Below are positions 198 to 9,912 of a stretch of 13,072 bases of DNA, piece after piece. Source of the DNA: Fulvivirga aurantia (GTDB lineage Bacteria; Bacteroidota; Bacteroidia; Cytophagales; Cyclobacteriaceae); NCBI RefSeq assembly GCF_009711475.1, contig NZ_SMMD01000878.1, positions 1 through 13,072 of the forward strand. The letters are read 5' to 3'. A program made the translations under genes and the position numbers. Below the pieces are notes generated by a model, which was given only the letters and a program-made list of their open reading frames with translations, was not told where the DNA came from and ran no database searches. How positions within the stretch are numbered: position 1 is the first letter of the stretch; every line of letters starts with the position of its first letter.

Positions 198-644
198 TCA
201 GACTTTGCGCCATTCTACGTTAAAAATGATCTCCTGATCGCCCGTTTCGATTGGTGGTGTAGAAAGTATCAATCTGTCACCTTCAATTCTTCCGAAACGT
301 CTCTCTGTATTGCCAAGCCAGTTGGGGAAGGTGCCGCCAAGTACTGTATGTACAAAGGTGCCAGGCTCTTCTTCCTCATAAGTGCCGAAATACGCAAAAT
401 ATGTTTTAAAGGCATCTACGATCTCATCAGACGTACCATCGTACATGCCATCTTTTTTAAACTTTTTTCTGTTTTCTTTTGCGATATGCACACTCATATA
501 ACCGCTTTCTGTATACATGAGCACCCCTGTTGGGCTGGTGCCAAAGTAATCTACAACCTCTCCATTGGGTCCGTTATAGGTCCATGAGACTAACTCCCAT
601 GTACCTATTATTTCTTCCGTGATTTTATTATCAAGTAAACTCAT
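198..644 (-). CDS. Lipocalin-like domain protein, partner of the polyketide synthase
   Basis: The 148-residue protein resembles the lipocalin-like family (Pfam Lipocalin_5 type), small beta-barrel proteins often found beside biosynthetic genes. Visible family marks are the N-terminal GTWELVSW strand (residues 14-21), the SGYMSV strand (47-52), an aromatic YFAYFGTYE segment (82-90), and a C-terminal part with NWLGNTERRF (108-117) and LILSTPP (125-131). There is no signal peptide or membrane segment, so it should be cytoplasmic. It starts 3 nt after the synthase stop codon, so the two are almost certainly co-transcribed and perhaps translationally coupled. Family members have no single established reaction. 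Binding, cyclising or otherwise shaping the polyketide is an inference from position only. The family assignment is fairly sure; the role is unknown. Confidence 0.8.
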   Translation of the reverse strand: MSLLDNKITEEIIGTWELVSWTYNGPNGEVVDYFGTSPTGVLMYTESGYMSVHIAKENRKKFKKDGMYDGTSDEIVDAFKTYFAYFGTYEEEEPGTFVHTVLGGTFPNWLGNTERRFGRIEGDRLILSTPPIETGDQEIIFNVEWRKV

Positions 645-647
645 AGC

Positions 648-3600
648 TTAAACTTCAACTGTTTTAGTAGTCGGGTTTATTACTTCTTTATTAATTAGTT
701 CAGTTACAAAGTCTACATCATTTCTCAAATAATGATGGTCGCCCTCTCTTTCTATCAATTTGAAGTTTAGAGTAGTTTCATTTTTCCATGCACTCATTTG
801 CGCAGTACTTACAGTTTCGTCATTTACGCCATGTATGCCGATGATGTTGAGGTCTAAAGGAGGCTCAAAATCATATTTATAGCTACTAATCAAATTTAGA
901 TCACCTCTTAACTGCTTGATAAGGATAGCTTTTAACTCCGGATCTGCTGTATTGCTCAAGTATAGAAATCTCTTTTCTAATTGTGCATCTGTCGCATTAG
1001 GATCTAACGTAGTTTTATCATATGCAGATAACTGAGGAGTAGAAGAAACGAACATTTTTACCGGAAGCGTAGCATGTCTTCTTCGTAACTCTCTGGCTAC
1101 TTCAAAAGCTATGAGGCCTCCCATACTGTGACCCATAAACATAAAAGGTTTATCGATTACAGGTAGCAAAGCATCCGTGATCTTGGTAATTGCTTCGCCC
1201 ATTTTATTTAAAGGTGCTGTTGAAGACGACTTACCTCTACCTGGAAGCTCTACAGTCACTAACTGTATTTTCTCATCGATAAAGTCCTTCCAGTCATCAT
1301 ATAAGGCCGCACTACCACCCGCATCATGGAAACAGATAAGCTGAATTTTTGTGCTATCTGTAGCTTCTTCCACAGTAATTACCGGTTGTTTCTCACCTTT
1401 TTTATGGTTTTCATTTGCTCCGCCAAACAGCTTATTTAAAAGAAATTGAGAGTATTCTGCGATAGTAGGATGTTCCCAAATTTCTGTAACAGACAGCTTT
1501 ACCTCAAGTGCTTTTTCAAGCTTATTTCTAAACTGAACGGCCATGAGCGAATCGATACCGAGACTTTTAAACTTCGATTTAGTTGATAAATCACTTTCAG
1601 CCATTTTGATAATACCAGCCGTCAGTTTCTTTATGTGAAGTTCGATAGCTTCAAGTCGGTCCTCATTTGACGGTAAAATCTGCATCGTTTTCAATAAACT
1701 TTGCCCATCGTTGGCATTGTCATTGTCGGTGATTACAGGCTTAAAATAATTGCTTGCACCTAATGCCGGGAAGTACTCAGCTGCCTGATTTGTATCAATT
1801 TTAAATACTCCGAGATTGGTATGGTTTTGATCAAACACCTTACTCAAAGCAGAAACAGCCTCATGCATAGGTGTAGCTTCAAACCCTTCTGCCTTAGCGA
1901 ATTTTTCCAGATTTTCTCCGGAAGCTACCATCCCTACATCACTCATTACACCCCAGTTGATGCTATTAGCAGGCAAGTTGTGTTTTTGTCTAAACTGTGC
2001 AAGTGCATCCAATGAAGCATTTGCAGCTACATAGCTTGCCTGGCCAGTAAGGCCTAATAAACTCGATGCAGACGAGAATAGCACGAAGTGATCAAGGTTA
2101 AATGAACTAGAAATTCTATGCAAATTCCAGGCACCCTGCACTTTAGCGTCCATGGCAAAATCCAGATCTTTCTCTTCGATTTCAACCAGTTGCTGCGCCT
2201 TTATAAGACCTGCGGCATGTACTATGCCTTTTATTGGTCTCTCTTTATTTACTTTCTTTAAGAGTGCGTCAAGTGTGTTGTAATCATTTACGTCACAAGC
2301 TTCGATGCTTATTCTTGCACCTGCTCCTTTTAGAGCGTGTATTTTTTCCTGCAATAAATCATCAAGAGTGGTTGATCGACTGATGAGGCAGAAATTACGC
2401 ACACCACATTCAAACATCCATTCTACCATAGAGAAGGCGATTCCTTTATAGCCGGTAACCACATAGGTACCAATGGATGAAAACTTAGTCTTTTGCAAAT
2501 CATATACATCAGGACTGTACGTTTCTAACCGTTGTGCAAAAATCGAATTACCTCTAATAGCTATTTCTTTTTCTTTTGCTATTGGATTTCCAATAAGCGT
2601 TGCTAGTGTATTTAACTCCTGAGGATTAGGTGTATAACTCAAGTCGAGATGTTTTACCTCATATTGAGAAACCTCGTTGAAGGCTACTTTGCTAAGTCCG
2701 ACTAAACCAGCCTGCGACAGGTTGATGTGAGCACTCTCAACAGGGGCTGTACCATTGGTAACCACGGTCAACTGAGGTGTTTTGTCAGATTTGTATCCTT
2801 CTAATGCTTTTACAACTTCTAAGAAATTTAATGCAGAAGCCCTTTCAAGTTTTACAGTATCACTGGCAAACCTGCTGAGAGCAAAAAATATTACTTCATC
2901 AGCATTATAGTCTTCCATGCTTTTCAGACCCTCAGAACGCATGCTCAGAAGATCTACTTTATGACCAGCTGCTGTAAGTCTTTCAGCAAATTCGGAGGTT
3001 TGAGGTGCCTCTTCTGCTTCAATAACCAAAATTGATTTGCTTTTGCCTTTTCCAGTGCTTAGAGCAAGCTTCTCATAGTTGGTTTTGTAATACCAGTTTG
3101 CCTGATCTTCTTCATTGTCATTAAACCTAAAGATTTTACCTGCTAGCTGAGTCAACTTTACCAAAACCTCACCACTGCTATCTGTAATTATAACGTTAGC
3201 TGAGATTTCATCACATTGGCCATCATTAGTTTTTTGTTCTTTGGTGATAGTGGTGTGTACCTTCAACTCATTGCTAAACCACATGGGTTTAAAAACTTCA
3301 ATAGCATCTATACCAGTAAGATATGTGCTACATGTAACGTCCTTCTCAAAGTTAGTGTGCTTAGCAAAAAGCGTTTGTAGACATGCATCTAACACAGCAG
3401 GGTGAAATTGATATTTTCCAAGGCTGTGTACGAGTTGTTGATGTACTGTAACATTAGCATAAACATCATTTCCTGATACCGTGATACCTTCAATACCCTG
3501 GAAGTAATTGCCGTATTGTAGTCCCAGACCTTCTAATTGTTGGTAATAGTTCTCTTTAGAAGTAGCAGCTATGAAATCAATTTTGTGCGTTTCTGTAGCG

Positions 3601-6600
3601 TTTGTTGTTTGATTTGAAAAAGAACCACATGCAGTTTCTGTCCAATTTCCATCTATTTGCTGATAAAACTGAAAACTCTTTTTATCGGTCGAAATTTTTA
3701 ACTGAACATGAGCCTCCTGTCCTTCTTCGAGTGTTATGGCAGACTTAAACTGTAGATTTCTAAAGCTAACGGCTTCCTGACCAGTCAATTGTCTTAAGGC
3801 TGTTGTCAGCATTTCAACATAGCTTACCCCAGGTAAAACCACCTTGCCAGATACAGCGTGATCTGTCAAATAAGGGAACTCCTCTATGCCAATATGAGCC
3901 TCCCAAAAATGATAACCATCAAGCTGAGCTAGTTTTAATTCTTTGCCCACCCATGGGTGACCTTCCTTACTAGTCTTTTGTGCGTTTTTGCGCTCAGTCA
4001 GTGTATAAGTAGATCTTTGGAATGGATATGCAGGTAGTGCCAATGTCGGTATTGTCGGATTATCATATTTCTGATTCCAATCAATATTTAGCCCTTGTTG
4101 GTACAGTGAGTCTAAGCTCGAGTAAAACTCGACTACCTCTGGCTTATTTCTGTATAGAGTACCAGAAGTCACGCCACTACCGTTGTATGCATCGAGACAC
4201 TCGGTTACAGCGGTGGTAAGTACCGGGTGAGGGCTTACTTCAATAAATACATTGTATCCATCAGCAATAAGCTGCTCCATAACACCGGCAAACTGAACAC
4301 CATTTCTTAAATTGTTTACCCAGTACCCAGCATTAAGACTTTCACCTTCGATTAATTTATTTTCAACTGTTGAGTATAATTTAGTTGTATTCTTTACAGG
4401 ATTTACTTCTTGTAAAGCAACAGCTAGCTTAGCTTTTAATGGCTCCATTTGAGCACTGTGAGAAGCAACATCTACTTTTACCTGTCTGCAAAACTTTCCT
4501 TGTTTTTCAAGTTCATCAAGCAAATCTGATATAAGAGATTGATCGCCCGCAAGTACTGTAGACTTGGGACTATTATTTACAGCAATAGAAAGTCCGGGAT
4601 ACTGTTTGATCGCTTCCTCGGCTTCTGGAACGGTCAGTTCTGTTACTGCCATAGCGCCACCGGTGCCACTTACAGTTTTCATCAGTTTGCTTCGAGTACA
4701 AATCACTCTGGCAGCTTCATCTAAAGAAATACTACCTGAGATATGTGCCGCAGCAACTTCTCCCATACTATGTCCTGTAACTGCATCTGCAGTAACACCA
4801 AATGATTGCCATAATCTGGCTAATGCGATTTGCATGGCACAAAGTGCCGGTTGTATCACATCGATTTCGTTTAATCTTGATTCTTCCTCTGAGGCGTTAA
4901 GCTGCGATATCAAAGACCAATCACAATATTTAGCGAATGCGGCATCGCACTCATCGATGGCTTGCTTAAATACAGGTTCTTTTATGTACAAGCCCTGGCC
5001 CATGCCCAGCCACTGCGAGCCTTGTCCAGGAAAAATGAAAGCAACTTTAGGCTTTTCTACCACTGTGCTGTCTGGAGAACCTGATCGTAGGTACTCTTCC
5101 AGCTGAGCGATCATGTCAAGCTTATTGTTAGCCACAAATAGCTTTCTGTAATCAAAAGCAGGCTTTCTTATCGCTGAAGCTATGTTCGTACTTATAAAAT
5201 CTTCCATTTTCCCATTTAAATGATTAGTGAGAAAATGCTTGTAAGACTTCACGTAATCTAGCAAAGCCTTTTCAGATCTGCCTGAGATTGGCAAAACATG
5301 TTTGCTGTGCTTGTCATGAGAATTTGTTTCTTCCTTTTTGCTTGCAGGGCGATACTCTTCAATTACTGTGTGGCCATTAGTGCCTCCCCACCCAAATGAG
5401 TTTACACCTACCTTCATGGTTTCGTCTCCTTCAACCGGCCACTCAGAGTGCTCGGCCTGCACCTTGACATTGATCTTTTCAAAATCAATTTCAGGATTAG
5501 GAGTATTGAAGTTTAAGTTTTTTGGTAGTTGTTTATTGTTAATGGCAAGCACGGATTTGATAAGTCCTGCCATACCTGCCGCACCTTCAAGGTGTCCGAT
5601 ATTTGTTTTTACAGACCCTACATGCAATGGTCGCTTTCTGTTTTTACTAAAGAATGTGCCCAAAGCTTTAGTCTCAGTCGGGTCTCCTAATTTTGTGCCC
5701 GTACCATGTGCTTCTACATAGTGTACATCAGCTGGGTTTATTCCAGAATCCTGATAAGCTTCATTGAGCACATCTAGTTGACCGGCCACACTCGTAGCAG
5801 GTAAATTTTGATTGTACCCATTATTATTTAAAGCTGTACCTCTTATTACAGCAAATATTTTGTCACCGTCTCTTTCTGCATCAGAAAGTTTTTTGAGTAG
5901 AATGATTCCGCCTCCTTCGCCTCTTACAAAACCATCCGCTCCTGCATCGAATGTGCTACACTTTCCTTTTACAGATAACCCGCCAAACTTCGACAATAAT
6001 ACATTTTGGTCCGGGTCTAACATGTGATTTACACCACCCACGATGCTCTGCTCTATACTACCATCCCAAAGACTCTGGCAAGCCAGATGTAATGCTACAA
6101 GAGATGATGAGCAGCCTGTGTCAACTACCAGACTAGGTCCTGAAAAACCGTAAAAGAAAGAAATACGGTTGGCTATAATATTTGCAGACTGACCAACGGC
6201 AGAGTGGCTGGTTACTTCTGCATGTTTGTGCTTTCTGTGATGTTCAAAGTCGCTCCATATGTTACCGACATAAACACCTATCTTTTTACCTGCTACTTTT
6301 TCAAAAGGAATGTTGCTGCTTTCCAGGCACTCCCAGGTAAGTTCCATCATCAGCTTTTGAGATGGACTCATTTCAGCTGCTTCTGCAGGCGATATGTTAA
6401 AAAATAATGGATCAAAGTCATCAATCTTTTCAAACATAGATCCATGACGTTGATTGGTTTTATCCTTTGCTGATTTATCAGGATTATAATACTCTTCGAT
6501 ATCCCATCTTTTGATGGTATCAATAGTGTCTTTTCCTTGAGATAATAAAGCCCAGAATTCTTGAAGGTTGTTTACCTTAGGGAAGCGGCAAGACATACCA

Positions 6601-6626
6601 ACAATCGCTATAGGTTCTTTAGACAT
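648..6626 (-). CDS. Stand-alone type I polyketide synthase, KS-AT-DH-KR-ACP-TE
   Basis: This 1992-residue cytoplasmic megasynthase builds a polyketide chain from malonyl-type extender units. Ketosynthase, about 4-425: Cys172 in DTGCSSS (usually DTACSSS), His307 in EAHGTGT, His345 in KTNIGH. Acyltransferase, about 527-830: GQGSQ loop, Ser620 in GHSMGE, VASH at 720-723. The post-AT linker ends near LPAYPFQR (864-871). Dehydratase, about 889-1165: His923 in HxxxGxxxxP and Asp1080 in DxxxQ. Ketoreductase with structural half, about 1178-1610: Lys1495, Ser1519, Tyr1532 and Asn1536 kept, but the NADPH loop is TGYKGIAF (1391-1398). Acyl carrier, about 1655-1735: Ser1693 in GIDSL. Thioesterase, about 1758-1980: Ser1834 in GHSMGG, Asp1936, His1964. 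No enoylreductase or methyltransferase is seen. The ketosynthase begins at residue 4, leaving no docking domain, and a thioesterase is fused, so iterative use is likely. The product is not predictable. Confidence 0.95.
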   Translation of the reverse strand: MSKEPIAIVGMSCRFPKVNNLQEFWALLSQGKDTIDTIKRWDIEEYYNPDKSAKDKTNQRHGSMFEKIDDFDPLFFNISPAEAAEMSPSQKLMMELTWECLESSNIPFEKVAGKKIGVYVGNIWSDFEHHRKHKHAEVTSHSAVGQSANIIANRISFFYGFSGPSLVVDTGCSSSLVALHLACQSLWDGSIEQSIVGGVNHMLDPDQNVLLSKFGGLSVKGKCSTFDAGADGFVRGEGGGIILLKKLSDAERDGDKIFAVIRGTALNNNGYNQNLPATSVAGQLDVLNEAYQDSGINPADVHYVEAHGTGTKLGDPTETKALGTFFSKNRKRPLHVGSVKTNIGHLEGAAGMAGLIKSVLAINNKQLPKNLNFNTPNPEIDFEKINVKVQAEHSEWPVEGDETMKVGVNSFGWGGTNGHTVIEEYRPASKKEETNSHDKHSKHVLPISGRSEKALLDYVKSYKHFLTNHLNGKMEDFISTNIASAIRKPAFDYRKLFVANNKLDMIAQLEEYLRSGSPDSTVVEKPKVAFIFPGQGSQWLGMGQGLYIKEPVFKQAIDECDAAFAKYCDWSLISQLNASEEESRLNEIDVIQPALCAMQIALARLWQSFGVTADAVTGHSMGEVAAAHISGSISLDEAARVICTRSKLMKTVSGTGGAMAVTELTVPEAEEAIKQYPGLSIAVNNSPKSTVLAGDQSLISDLLDELEKQGKFCRQVKVDVASHSAQMEPLKAKLAVALQEVNPVKNTTKLYSTVENKLIEGESLNAGYWVNNLRNGVQFAGVMEQLIADGYNVFIEVSPHPVLTTAVTECLDAYNGSGVTSGTLYRNKPEVVEFYSSLDSLYQQGLNIDWNQKYDNPTIPTLALPAYPFQRSTYTLTERKNAQKTSKEGHPWVGKELKLAQLDGYHFWEAHIGIEEFPYLTDHAVSGKVVLPGVSYVEMLTTALRQLTGQEAVSFRNLQFKSAITLEEGQEAHVQLKISTDKKSFQFYQQIDGNWTETACGSFSNQTTNATETHKIDFIAATSKENYYQQLEGLGLQYGNYFQGIEGITVSGNDVYANVTVHQQLVHSLGKYQFHPAVLDACLQTLFAKHTNFEKDVTCSTYLTGIDAIEVFKPMWFSNELKVHTTITKEQKTNDGQCDEISANVIITDSSGEVLVKLTQLAGKIFRFNDNEEDQANWYYKTNYEKLALSTGKGKSKSILVIEAEEAPQTSEFAERLTAAGHKVDLLSMRSEGLKSMEDYNADEVIFFALSRFASDTVKLERASALNFLEVVKALEGYKSDKTPQLTVVTNGTAPVESAHINLSQAGLVGLSKVAFNEVSQYEVKHLDLSYTPNPQELNTLATLIGNPIAKEKEIAIRGNSIFAQRLETYSPDVYDLQKTKFSSIGTYVVTGYKGIAFSMVEWMFECGVRNFCLISRSTTLDDLLQEKIHALKGAGARISIEACDVNDYNTLDALLKKVNKERPIKGIVHAAGLIKAQQLVEIEEKDLDFAMDAKVQGAWNLHRISSSFNLDHFVLFSSASSLLGLTGQASYVAANASLDALAQFRQKHNLPANSINWGVMSDVGMVASGENLEKFAKAEGFEATPMHEAVSALSKVFDQNHTNLGVFKIDTNQAAEYFPALGASNYFKPVITDNDNANDGQSLLKTMQILPSNEDRLEAIELHIKKLTAGIIKMAESDLSTKSKFKSLGIDSLMAVQFRNKLEKALEVKLSVTEIWEHPTIAEYSQFLLNKLFGGANENHKKGEKQPVITVEEATDSTKIQLICFHDAGGSAALYDDWKDFIDEKIQLVTVELPGRGKSSSTAPLNKMGEAITKITDALLPVIDKPFMFMGHSMGGLIAFEVARELRRRHATLPVKMFVSSTPQLSAYDKTTLDPNATDAQLEKRFLYLSNTADPELKAILIKQLRGDLNLISSYKYDFEPPLDLNIIGIHGVNDETVSTAQMSAWKNETTLNFKLIEREGDHHYLRNDVDFVTELINKEVINPTTKTVEV

Positions 6627-6702
6627 GATTTTGTGGTTAGGTTTTAAAAATTTTAGATTGCGATGCTAAGTTCTTAAGTATGCATGCCTAATAAATCAGG
6701 GC

Positions 6703-6723
6703 GATTTCTGATATCTGAAAATC
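6703..6723. repeat. Imperfect palindrome centred on GATATC
   Basis: The arms pair around a central GATATC (6710-6715) with one central-flank mismatch and one bulged base, giving GATTTC on the left and GAAAATC on the right. It lies 77 bp upstream of the synthase start codon. Size and position suit an operator, but AT-rich DNA produces such palindromes by chance, so function is a guess. Confidence 0.3.
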
Positions 6724-6817
6724 AGTGTTTTATGAGTTAAAATCGGCCAAAAATGATTTATTTGAGTGTTTTGTTTAAGCGTACCTGAGGATGTCGAGCA
6801 AAATTTACAAATACGTC

Positions 6818-6833
6818 TCAGGGTTTACCCTGA
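6818..6833 (+). repeat. Perfect hairpin TCAGGG-TTTA-CCCTGA just upstream of the transferase start
   Basis: A six-base-pair perfect stem with a TTTA loop ends 15 nt before the transferase ATG at 6849. It is followed by A-rich, not T-rich, sequence on the plus strand, so it is not an intrinsic terminator. CCTGAG at 6784-6789 can pair with CTCAGG at 6817-6822, which would exclude this hairpin. The ATCAGGG word also occurs at 6695-6701. It could be an operator or a leader-RNA structure. Confidence 0.4.
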
Positions 6834-6848
6834 TAAAAAAGTAAGGAA

Positions 6849-7469
6849 ATGAGGCTTATTTACTATTTAATCGGGGATGATGAAGTCAAAGAAGAACAAA
6901 AATTGACTCAAAATCTTCCTCAAAATCACCTTGATAAAGCTTCCGAATATCAGTTTATTTCTGACAAGTTACGGTTCCTCGCAGGCCGAAATTTACTCAT
7001 AGAGGCACTCGACAAAATGGGTAAGTCATTAGATTCTGTTTACTATGATGAGAAGGGCAAACCTCATGTAGAGGGTATCAGTTTTTCAATAAGCCATTCT
7101 GAGCGACTTGTTGTATTGGTTTTAAGTGATATAGCCGATGTTGGCGTAGATGTAGAGTTTATACGAGAAATTGATGTGAATGAACTCAGTGCTGAGTTTA
7201 ATGAGGCAGATCAAAGGCGGCTCAAAGCAGCAAATGATGTTTTAGATGAGTTTTTTCAAATCTGGACTGCTAAAGAGAGTGTGATGAAAGCAGATGGGCG
7301 AGGCTTTTATTTATCTCCCAAAAAGATACAAATCGATGAAGAAGTGGCAATTGTAGAAGATAAAAATCAGAAATGGTTTTTACAATATATTAATTTGGCC
7401 ACTGGCTATAAGACTTGCGTGTGTAGTACTATCGAACCTAAGGTTAAAGTCGAGCAATTAAGGCTTTGA
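6849..7469 (+). CDS. Sfp-type 4'-phosphopantetheinyl transferase
   Basis: The enzyme transfers phosphopantetheine from coenzyme A to a conserved serine of carrier domains, and its obvious target here is Ser1693 of the neighbouring polyketide synthase. At 206 residues it is close to the usual Sfp-type size. The motifs are in order: GKPH (70-73), FSISHS (79-84), GVDVE (99-103) and WTAKES (139-144) with Lys147. Asp101, Glu103 and Glu143 are the expected Mg ligands. The ATG at 6849 is preceded by AAGGA almost touching it, a weakly placed ribosome site. The gene is divergent from the synthase, and its 3' end overlaps the end of aroE by 12 bp in convergent orientation. It might also serve other carrier proteins in the cell, but the context favours dedication to this locus. 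Confidence 0.93.
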   Translation: MRLIYYLIGDDEVKEEQKLTQNLPQNHLDKASEYQFISDKLRFLAGRNLLIEALDKMGKSLDSVYYDEKGKPHVEGISFSISHSERLVVLVLSDIADVGVDVEFIREIDVNELSAEFNEADQRRLKAANDVLDEFFQIWTAKESVMKADGRGFYLSPKKIQIDEEVAIVEDKNQKWFLQYINLATGYKTCVCSTIEPKVKVEQLRL

Positions 7470-9141: not shown

Positions 9142-9912
9142 TTAATTACCGTTTTGTGAAAGAAAATGATTGAAAGTATCTCCTCTCAGCCCTAAACGAA
9201 TGGTTTCTAAAGGAATTACCTCATTTGGCGCAATGTTACCCAGGTTTACATTGGCTCCGAGTAGTTTTATAAACCATACCTGCTGTGTTTTTTGAGGAGC
9301 TTCCCATAGAATTTTTTCAAAAGGTATTTTAGTCAAAATCTCCTGAACAAGACCAGATCTCACTTCACCGGATGATCTAAAGAGGCCAACGTTTCCACTT
9401 TCGCGAGCTTCTCCAATTACCTTCCAGGCACCTGCATCAAGTTCTGCCTGCATAAGTTTAATCCATTGGTAAGGAGGGATAATTTTTTCTTCGTCTTTAG
9501 ACCCCACTTCAGACAGTACAGTTACCTGATCAGAAAGCTTACTGATATAGTCGCATTTTTTATCATGATCTAACTCGATAGAGCCATCAGAAACTTCTGC
9601 GTATTTAAGGTCATACTTGTCTAGCACTCTGCGGTAGTCGTCAAACTGATTTCTTATAATGAATGCCTCAAATAAAGTGCCCCCAAAATAAACCGGGATA
9701 CCAGCATCGTGATATACCTTAATTTTTTCTTTTAGGTTAGAGGTGACATAGGATGTTGCCCATCCAAATTTTACTATGTCGATGTATTGACCGCTAGCGT
9801 CTATGAAGTCTTCTACTTCTCTGATGCTCAGGCCTTTATCCATGGCCATAGTAAAACCGTATTGCCTGGGCTTTTGAGTTCGCTCAGGAATATTATTCAA
9901 GCTATAATTCAT
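9142..9912 (-). CDS. comA: Phosphosulfolactate synthase family protein (ComA-like)
   Basis: ComA enzymes add sulfite to phosphoenolpyruvate to give (2R)-phospho-3-sulfolactate, the first step of coenzyme M synthesis in methanogens. The 256-residue length fits the family. Family motifs along a TIM barrel are KFGWATS (48-54), YFGGTLFE (75-82), EVSDG (106-110), SEVGSK (134-139), GEARESG (167-173), WEAPQK (203-208) and VNLGNI (222-227). No other coenzyme M genes are in the window. In Bacteroidota a sulfolactate or cysteate branch, for example toward sulfonolipids, is an attractive but unproved role. The start overlaps the TPR gene stop by one base (TAATG), and the gene precedes the DUF368 gene by 5 nt, so it belongs to one operon. 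Family call firm, substrate less so. Confidence 0.88.
   Translation of the reverse strand: MNYSLNNIPERTQKPRQYGFTMAMDKGLSIREVEDFIDASGQYIDIVKFGWATSYVTSNLKEKIKVYHDAGIPVYFGGTLFEAFIIRNQFDDYRRVLDKYDLKYAEVSDGSIELDHDKKCDYISKLSDQVTVLSEVGSKDEEKIIPPYQWIKLMQAELDAGAWKVIGEARESGNVGLFRSSGEVRSGLVQEILTKIPFEKILWEAPQKTQQVWFIKLLGANVNLGNIAPNEVIPLETIRLGLRGDTFNHFLSQNGN

Follow-up and report, generated by a model that had tools for sequence, protein, structure and literature searches.

The DNA analysed here (the window) is one entire contig of 13,072 bases from Fulvivirga aurantia (NCBI RefSeq assembly GCF_009711475.1, contig NZ_SMMD01000878.1; label G000:C239), so its left edge is an assembly end; the source genome is 98.93% complete and comprises 947 contigs. 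The window encodes a type I polyketide synthase (PKS), a lipocalin-like protein directly behind it and a 4'-phosphopantetheinyl transferase on its other side. We find that the synthase and lipocalin genes are a real unit, associated beyond chance, as 32 genomes of the family sample described below carry the two together, and we consider it probable that this is a one-module type I PKS locus making a small polyketide in the cytoplasm. The synthase would be a cis-acyltransferase enzyme, probably iterative, with a type II-like thioesterase that sets the product free as an acid. A first-pass annotation, made from the sequence alone, had proposed these three genes as a minimal, self-contained polyketide locus. 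Open reading frame coordinates and Pfam agree with its three genes and their positions (Table 1), and its observation is confirmed, being right and stronger than it was stated.

The distribution of the pair was followed in samples of the family (390 genomes), the order (390 genomes, own family included) and the phylum (395 genomes); individual genomes and stretches are cited by G and L numbers. Among 14 relatives of the same genus, the synthase (over its length) and the lipocalin are present in the same 10 and neither is present in the other 4, one of which (G012) carries another PKS. Of the 390 family genomes, 39 match the lipocalin at E 1e-15 or better and 32 of them strongly (E 1e-50 or better), and the synthase lies directly upstream in all of these 32, in line with the tight coupling proposed for the lipocalin. 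The 32 loci are made up of sets of 14 and 18; in the window and in G608 the lipocalin was placed from the open reading frame list or the match search. With mechanically called starts, the two genes overlap or are separated by no more than 30 base pairs (bp) at 24 of the 31 loci measured, and the largest gap is 390 bp. Ten matches were obtained in the order sample at E 1e-25, namely the window's own, those of three further family genomes, and those of G816, G957, G859, G833, G941 and G1071. The same synthase-lipocalin pair is present in G816, G957 and G859, which belong to other families (G957 and G859 have a second, incomplete or split copy as well), while the match in G1071 is without a PKS. 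The trio of the first-pass annotation recurs in Bacteroidota. A search of named genomes gave only a 24% match to the acyltransferase stretch, in an Enterococcus record.

An association of lipocalins of this kind with PKSs in general was rejected. Ten lipocalin relatives were found in the phylum sample besides the window's own, with no PKS match within stretches of 13-14 kb, and the two that were inspected of the seven weaker family matches both stand alone without a PKS match. Separately, a degraded synthase copy is present in a genome of another genus (L062, G017:C254, 1-5483), where it is spread over three frames and the transferase still adjoins it.

Pfam places on the 1992-amino-acid (aa) synthase, in order, a ketosynthase (KS), an acyltransferase (AT), a dehydratase (DH, as two half-models), a ketoreductase (KR), an acyl carrier protein (ACP) and a thioesterase (TE). 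The KS model begins at residue 4 and an N-terminal docking region is therefore absent, as had been noted from the sequence. No Pfam match in the synthase was obtained for an enoyl reductase (ER) or for nonribosomal peptide synthetase (NRPS) domains (Condensation, AMP-binding), and only one PP-binding stretch was found. With a KS, its own AT and an ACP on one chain and the active-site residues present, the protein is a type I cis-AT PKS. The catalytic assignments in Table 1 follow motifs of the six domains which we take to be diagnostic. The KS Cys and both His, the AT Ser and His, the ACP Ser and the TE Ser, Asp and His are invariant in 35/35 aligned one-protein synthases (those of 32 family genomes together with G816, G859 and G957). 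The best four PDB matches of the TE are 3qmw, 3qmv and two entries of RifR, a type II thioesterase, so that stand-alone thioesterases are nearest to it. The best PDB matches of the AT, which include DEBS and a Lsd14 fusion, score 252-253 bits as compared to 179 for CurL and 120 for LovB.

Several lines of evidence indicate that the module stands alone. Only one KS match in the window's genome lies in a long frame (2005 aa), the other four being in frames of 387-437 aa. In all 34 relative stretches counted (the 13 of L049-L061, the 18 of L122-L139, and L154, L155 and L157), KS, AT and TE give a single match each, and the KR is absent in 6; the count does not extend to G017, the two-protein loci, the longer PKSs or the second copies, split or cut, in G859 and G957. 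A second module, which would have spoken against a self-contained locus, occurs in none of the 34. The 32 family KSs group as one clade in the KS tree (Shimodaira-Hasegawa-like approximate likelihood ratio test, SH-aLRT, 100), and their sister (SH-aLRT 100) is the KS of a KS-AT-ACP-TE protein found in two-protein loci, while FabF and the PfaA-like KSs lie far away. The latter, labelled by TIGR02813, are fragments below the full-length cut-off. The tree is composed of unnamed Bacteroidota PKSs and the KSs of one Streptomyces, one Nostoc and one Persicobacter record, with no characterised iterative reference among them. It thus separates the clade from the polyunsaturated fatty acid (PUFA) type, as far as the phylogeny proposed earlier was concerned, and places it beside two-protein loci. 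The iterative programming read by the first-pass annotation from the fused TE is plausible, since a lone module with a TE fits such use; the closeness of the KS to modular cis-AT KSs and its sister in a two-protein locus speak against it.

The two-protein loci are those of G833 and G941, from two further families, in which the lipocalin follows a KS-AT-ACP-TE protein (1288 and 1270 aa, respectively) without DH or KR. It is preceded in both by a larger PKS. That of G833 is a single protein of 2366 aa with a KS, two AT stretches, a DH, a KR and two ACP stretches, one of them C-terminal; that of G941 is similar but split over two adjacent open frames, the first starting with an ACP. These larger PKSs (L162 6583-13683, L163 6336-13417) are of unusual make-up in having two ACP and two AT stretches.

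The reductive domains vary among the 35 one-protein synthases, the KR being deleted or dead in 9. Six of these (G565, G654, G725, G512, G627 and G642) combine a deleted KR with a replaced DH Asp, and 4/6 have the DH His replaced too. In G003 and G013 the KR Tyr, the KR glycine loop, the DH His and the DH Asp (to Glu) have all been replaced in an intact reading frame. The KR Lys, Ser and Tyr are kept in the other 26/35 and the DH His and Asp in the same 26/26, the DH Asp being lost in 8 of the 9 others. That the DH residues are kept with a full KR and mostly lost otherwise argues that the KR really reduces. On account of the nine with a deleted or dead KR, the description of the synthase as partially reducing fails for the group as a whole. 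The KR state changes two times among 32 synthases, three times among 35 and four times when two-protein forms are included, on quick KS-AT trees with SH-aLRT support only, and the KR appears to have been lost about three times independently among one-protein synthases. When G003 is compared with G013, the two dead domains, DH and KR, are each still 61% alike, as compared to 64% and 71% in the working pair G004-G005, and they look as if kept as a scaffold.

The lipocalin matches Lipocalin_5 (PF13924) at 5.5e-32, with 111.1 bits against a gathering cut-off of 25, over residues 13-148 of its 148 aa. No hydrophobic leader is visible in it by eye. Its beta-barrel matches solved lipocalins in fold, with fatty-acid-binding proteins among the weak fold matches, while a sequence search against PDB gave no match at E 0.1. 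The Z of the OlmO/OssO spirocyclases (PDB 7sfn, 7sfp) is tied with that of many plain ligand binders, so they show no special kinship to it. No fungal Diels-Alderase is among the matches listed by VIA for the lipocalin, an absence that is not evidence. Evolutionary distances of the lipocalin correlate with those of the synthase domains at 0.80-0.86, as against 0.87-0.90 for domain pairs within the synthase.

We infer that the lipocalin, which would be cytoplasmic, binds or cyclises the product; this role, the product itself and the number of cycles are deductions from the genes. In the proposed scheme, the transferase would place phosphopantetheine on Ser1693 and the AT would load a malonyl-type extender, perhaps methylmalonyl; a methylmalonyl-CoA mutase is encoded in the window's genome. 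The KS would then condense, probably more than once, and each beta-keto group would be converted to an enoyl by the KR and DH, the chain staying unsaturated since there is no enoyl reductase. The acid may be hydrolysed off by the type II-like TE, and the lipocalin, which shows no export signal, might hold the free or ACP-bound hydrophobic product and fold or cyclise it. In relatives that have lost the KR, the products set free would be beta-keto compounds, and these could lactonise or decarboxylate.

Some observations weigh against this scheme. The broken synthase of G017 and a contig-end fragment in G057 (59% identical) are without a lipocalin match, in a search run without a positive control. 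In fold, the lipocalin is best matched by Bacteroides proteins of unknown function, and its distance correlation with the synthase still contains shared ancestry. The VASH of the AT motif is at most a putative methylmalonyl mark. Among PDB structures the KS scores nearest to the KSs of the modular cis-AT PKSs PikAI and CurL, and this is one ground for a different view, namely that the synthase turns over once, adding one malonyl or methylmalonyl unit to an acyl group from fatty acid metabolism, processing it once and releasing a modified fatty acid, with the lipocalin as an acyl carrier. The sister KS, whose KS-AT-ACP-TE protein would elongate a chain handed on from upstream, and the fatty-acid-binding proteins among the weak fold matches point the same way. 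However, no acyl-loading gene recurs at the locus, where the recurring partners seen are the lipocalin, a STAS-fold gene and the transferase (most other neighbours carry no assigned function, and a distant gene might do the loading), and we regard a single turn as possible and clearly less probable than the scheme above.

The KR itself raises a further question. Its glycine loop in the window is one residue shorter than those of EryKR1 and 4imp, the best-scoring KRs in PDB, a length common to all 24 intact family KRs, and in 16 of the 26 intact KRs, among them that of the window, the last Gly of the loop is Ala. Binding of NADPH could therefore be impaired. In G957 the KR Tyr and loop are lost and both DH residues are kept, an exception to the coupling of the two domains. 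It could be argued from the loop, and from a locus retained through about three KR losses, that the KR is non-reducing in every member, an epimerase or scaffold, and that the whole group makes beta-keto products. But the catalytic Lys, Ser and Tyr persist in 26/35 together with DH residues that would be idle without a hydroxyl substrate, which makes this view improbable. A secondary lipid synthase of the PUFA kind is more improbable by far. One large protein with domains like those of a fatty acid synthase would suit it, and PfaA-like ketosynthases (as KS fragments) do occur in family members; yet the TIGR02813 (PfaA) score is 432.5 against a cut-off of 1010.1 bits, the KS lies far from PfaA-like KSs in the tree, and only one ACP stretch is present. 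Tandem ACPs are the mark of PUFA synthases.

Returning to the one-module polyketide locus, we tentatively propose, as a broader idea that may well prove wrong, a class of one-protein PKSs spread across several Cytophagales families, with a cytoplasmic lipocalin as fixed partner serving as dedicated cyclase or product chaperone, and with a removable reductive half, so that lineages which independently dropped the KR would have switched from enoyl to beta-keto products. One-module bacterial synthases are among the simplest systems for learning how PKSs control chain length and reduction. Here a natural graded series is available, running from full KR and DH through a dead KR with DH residues kept, a dead KR and DH in an intact frame, and a deleted KR to the two-protein form whose terminal protein lacks both, and the lipocalin adjoins every form. 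The series bears on whether reduction governs chain length, and on the lipocalin as a post-PKS enzyme of a bacterial one-module PKS. The locus might further account for some type I PKS clusters that are unassigned in marine Bacteroidota.

Of the members of the locus, the transferase is the most loosely tied to it. It matches ACPS (PF01648) at 1.4e-12, with 48 bits against a cut-off of 25, and reaches no NCBIfam cut-off. A transferase is near the pair in 21/32 family loci, 4/14 by clustering and 17/18 by BLAST, counts for which stretch sizes and methods differ between the two sets. Two relatives' transferases were run through Pfam; that of G668 matches PF01648 and that of G582, counted by clustering or BLAST, does not. 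A further small gene is near the pair in 26/31 relatives (11/13 and 15/18). It has no Pfam match, and its model, with a predicted local distance difference test (pLDDT) score of 92.4, matches SpoIIAA-type STAS folds; it had no match in the window's own genome in a search without a positive control. This STAS-fold gene is a more constant neighbour of the pair than the transferase. Of the activator of its own ascribed to the locus, the family assignment is borne out, with a second phosphopantetheinyl transferase present in the genome; of the trio as a complete set, both pair and transferase recur and the STAS-fold gene is missing from it. Two additional STAS-like genes lie near the synthase in G033 (L058 16602-17483), where this small family is repeated.

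The synthase locus lies between aroE and uvrB (the latter identified by Pfam in G004) in G004, G005, G006, G009 and G013, and beside aroE in the window and G003, where the contig ends before uvrB. Only 2-3 bp separate aroE from uvrB in G007, G010 and G011, which have no synthase, as would fit a locus gained or lost as one unit. The synthase is elsewhere in G002, G008 and G014, and the aroE-uvrB interval is filled by three genes, one STAS-like (28-29% identical to that of the cluster), one of 348 aa and one of 267-268 aa, the last being methyltransferase-like in G008. In G012, without the synthase, a STAS-like gene 49% identical to the cluster's follows aroE and the contig ends before uvrB. Among the genes of such an aroE flank without the synthase (L197 4802-8566, L202 4595-7176), one is STAS-like, one is methyltransferase-like and another, of 344-348 aa, has no match in Pfam.

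In the window, the 3' end of the transferase gene overlaps that of aroE by 12 bp. To the right follow, named from Pfam matches, a VCA0040-like (undecaprenyl phosphate translocase-like) membrane protein, a ComA-like protein, a TPR protein, an epimerase-like protein and a CpsB/CapC protein. The ComA-type phosphosulfolactate synthase homologue (9142-9912, minus strand; PF02679, 6e-95) belongs to a block that is syntenic within the genus. A consensus promoter scan of the window gave scores no better than shuffles, and no repeats were found in the two stretches searched.

Table 1. Features of the polyketide synthase locus in the window
Feature	Positions	Strand	Details
Type I polyketide synthase KS-AT-DH-KR-ACP-TE, 1992 aa	648..6626	-	Pfam domain order
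Ketosynthase	5337..6617	-	residues 4-430; Cys172, His307, His345
Acyltransferase	4107..5039	-	residues 530-840; GHSMGE, VDVASHS motif; Ser620, His723
Dehydratase	3144..3959	-	residues 890-1161; His923, Asp1080
Ketoreductase	1941..2471	-	residues 1386-1562; Lys1495, Ser1519, Tyr1532; glycine loop TGYKGIAF
Acyl carrier protein	1440..1634	-	residues 1665-1729; Ser1693
Thioesterase, type II (RifR-like) kind	687..1343	-	residues 1762-1980; Ser1834, Asp1936, His1964
Lipocalin_5 protein, 148 aa	198..644	-	begins 3 bp past synthase stop
Sfp-type 4'-phosphopantetheinyl transferase, 206 aa	6849..7469	+	divergent from synthase
Synthase-transferase intergenic stretch, 222 bp	6627..6848		presumed divergent promoters

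No published description of the synthase-lipocalin pair was found in the literature covered, most subscription journals lying outside it, which agrees with the earlier impression that the set is not a described Bacteroidota pathway. For PF13924 together with polyketide, only the genome of a nematode-parasitic fungus turned up. For Fulvivirga kasyanovii, 16 clusters are reported, one of them a type I PKS, and 14 without a characterised counterpart (PMC12565237).

Closest to home, one-protein PKSs of a second group in Bacteroidota were encountered (L063, L064, L065 and L067), which measure about 2400 aa and each lie beside a PF01648 transferase. Such PKSs of the same family and order (G097, G024, G026 and G030) share with our locus the adjoining PF01648 transferase in all four, and are 35-38% identical to the synthase over the first ~1100-1380 residues. 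In contrast to the synthase, their KS falls in another clade, that of G097 (the only one scanned) is KS-AT-DH-ER-KR-ACP-TE and thus has an ER, and no lipocalin match was found in G024, G026 and G030. The iterative cis-AT PKSs of polycyclic tetramate macrolactams (PTMs) likewise have one KS-AT-DH-KR-ACP module in a small locus, and uncharacterised monomodular PTM-like PKSs are described, Bacteroidetes included (PMC10308959). However, PTM proteins continue with C-A-PCP-TE (PMC10308959), whereas here the TE directly follows the ACP with no NRPS domain; a PTM hybrid was rejected, as the synthase has no Condensation or AMP-binding match. The iterative PKS cluster SgaAB, for sphingolipids in Pseudomonas fluorescens, resembles the locus in having a lone type I PKS at the core of a small cluster, but the partner there is a pyridoxal phosphate (PLP)-dependent serine palmitoyltransferase, and the main text does not contain the word lipocalin (PMC12134224). 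Fungal lipocalin-like Diels-Alderases encoded beside PKS-NRPSs resemble the locus in joining a lipocalin-fold protein to a PKS, an iterative one there, a likeness drawn by description only; those systems are fungal and PKS-NRPS, unlike the locus here (PMC9701702).

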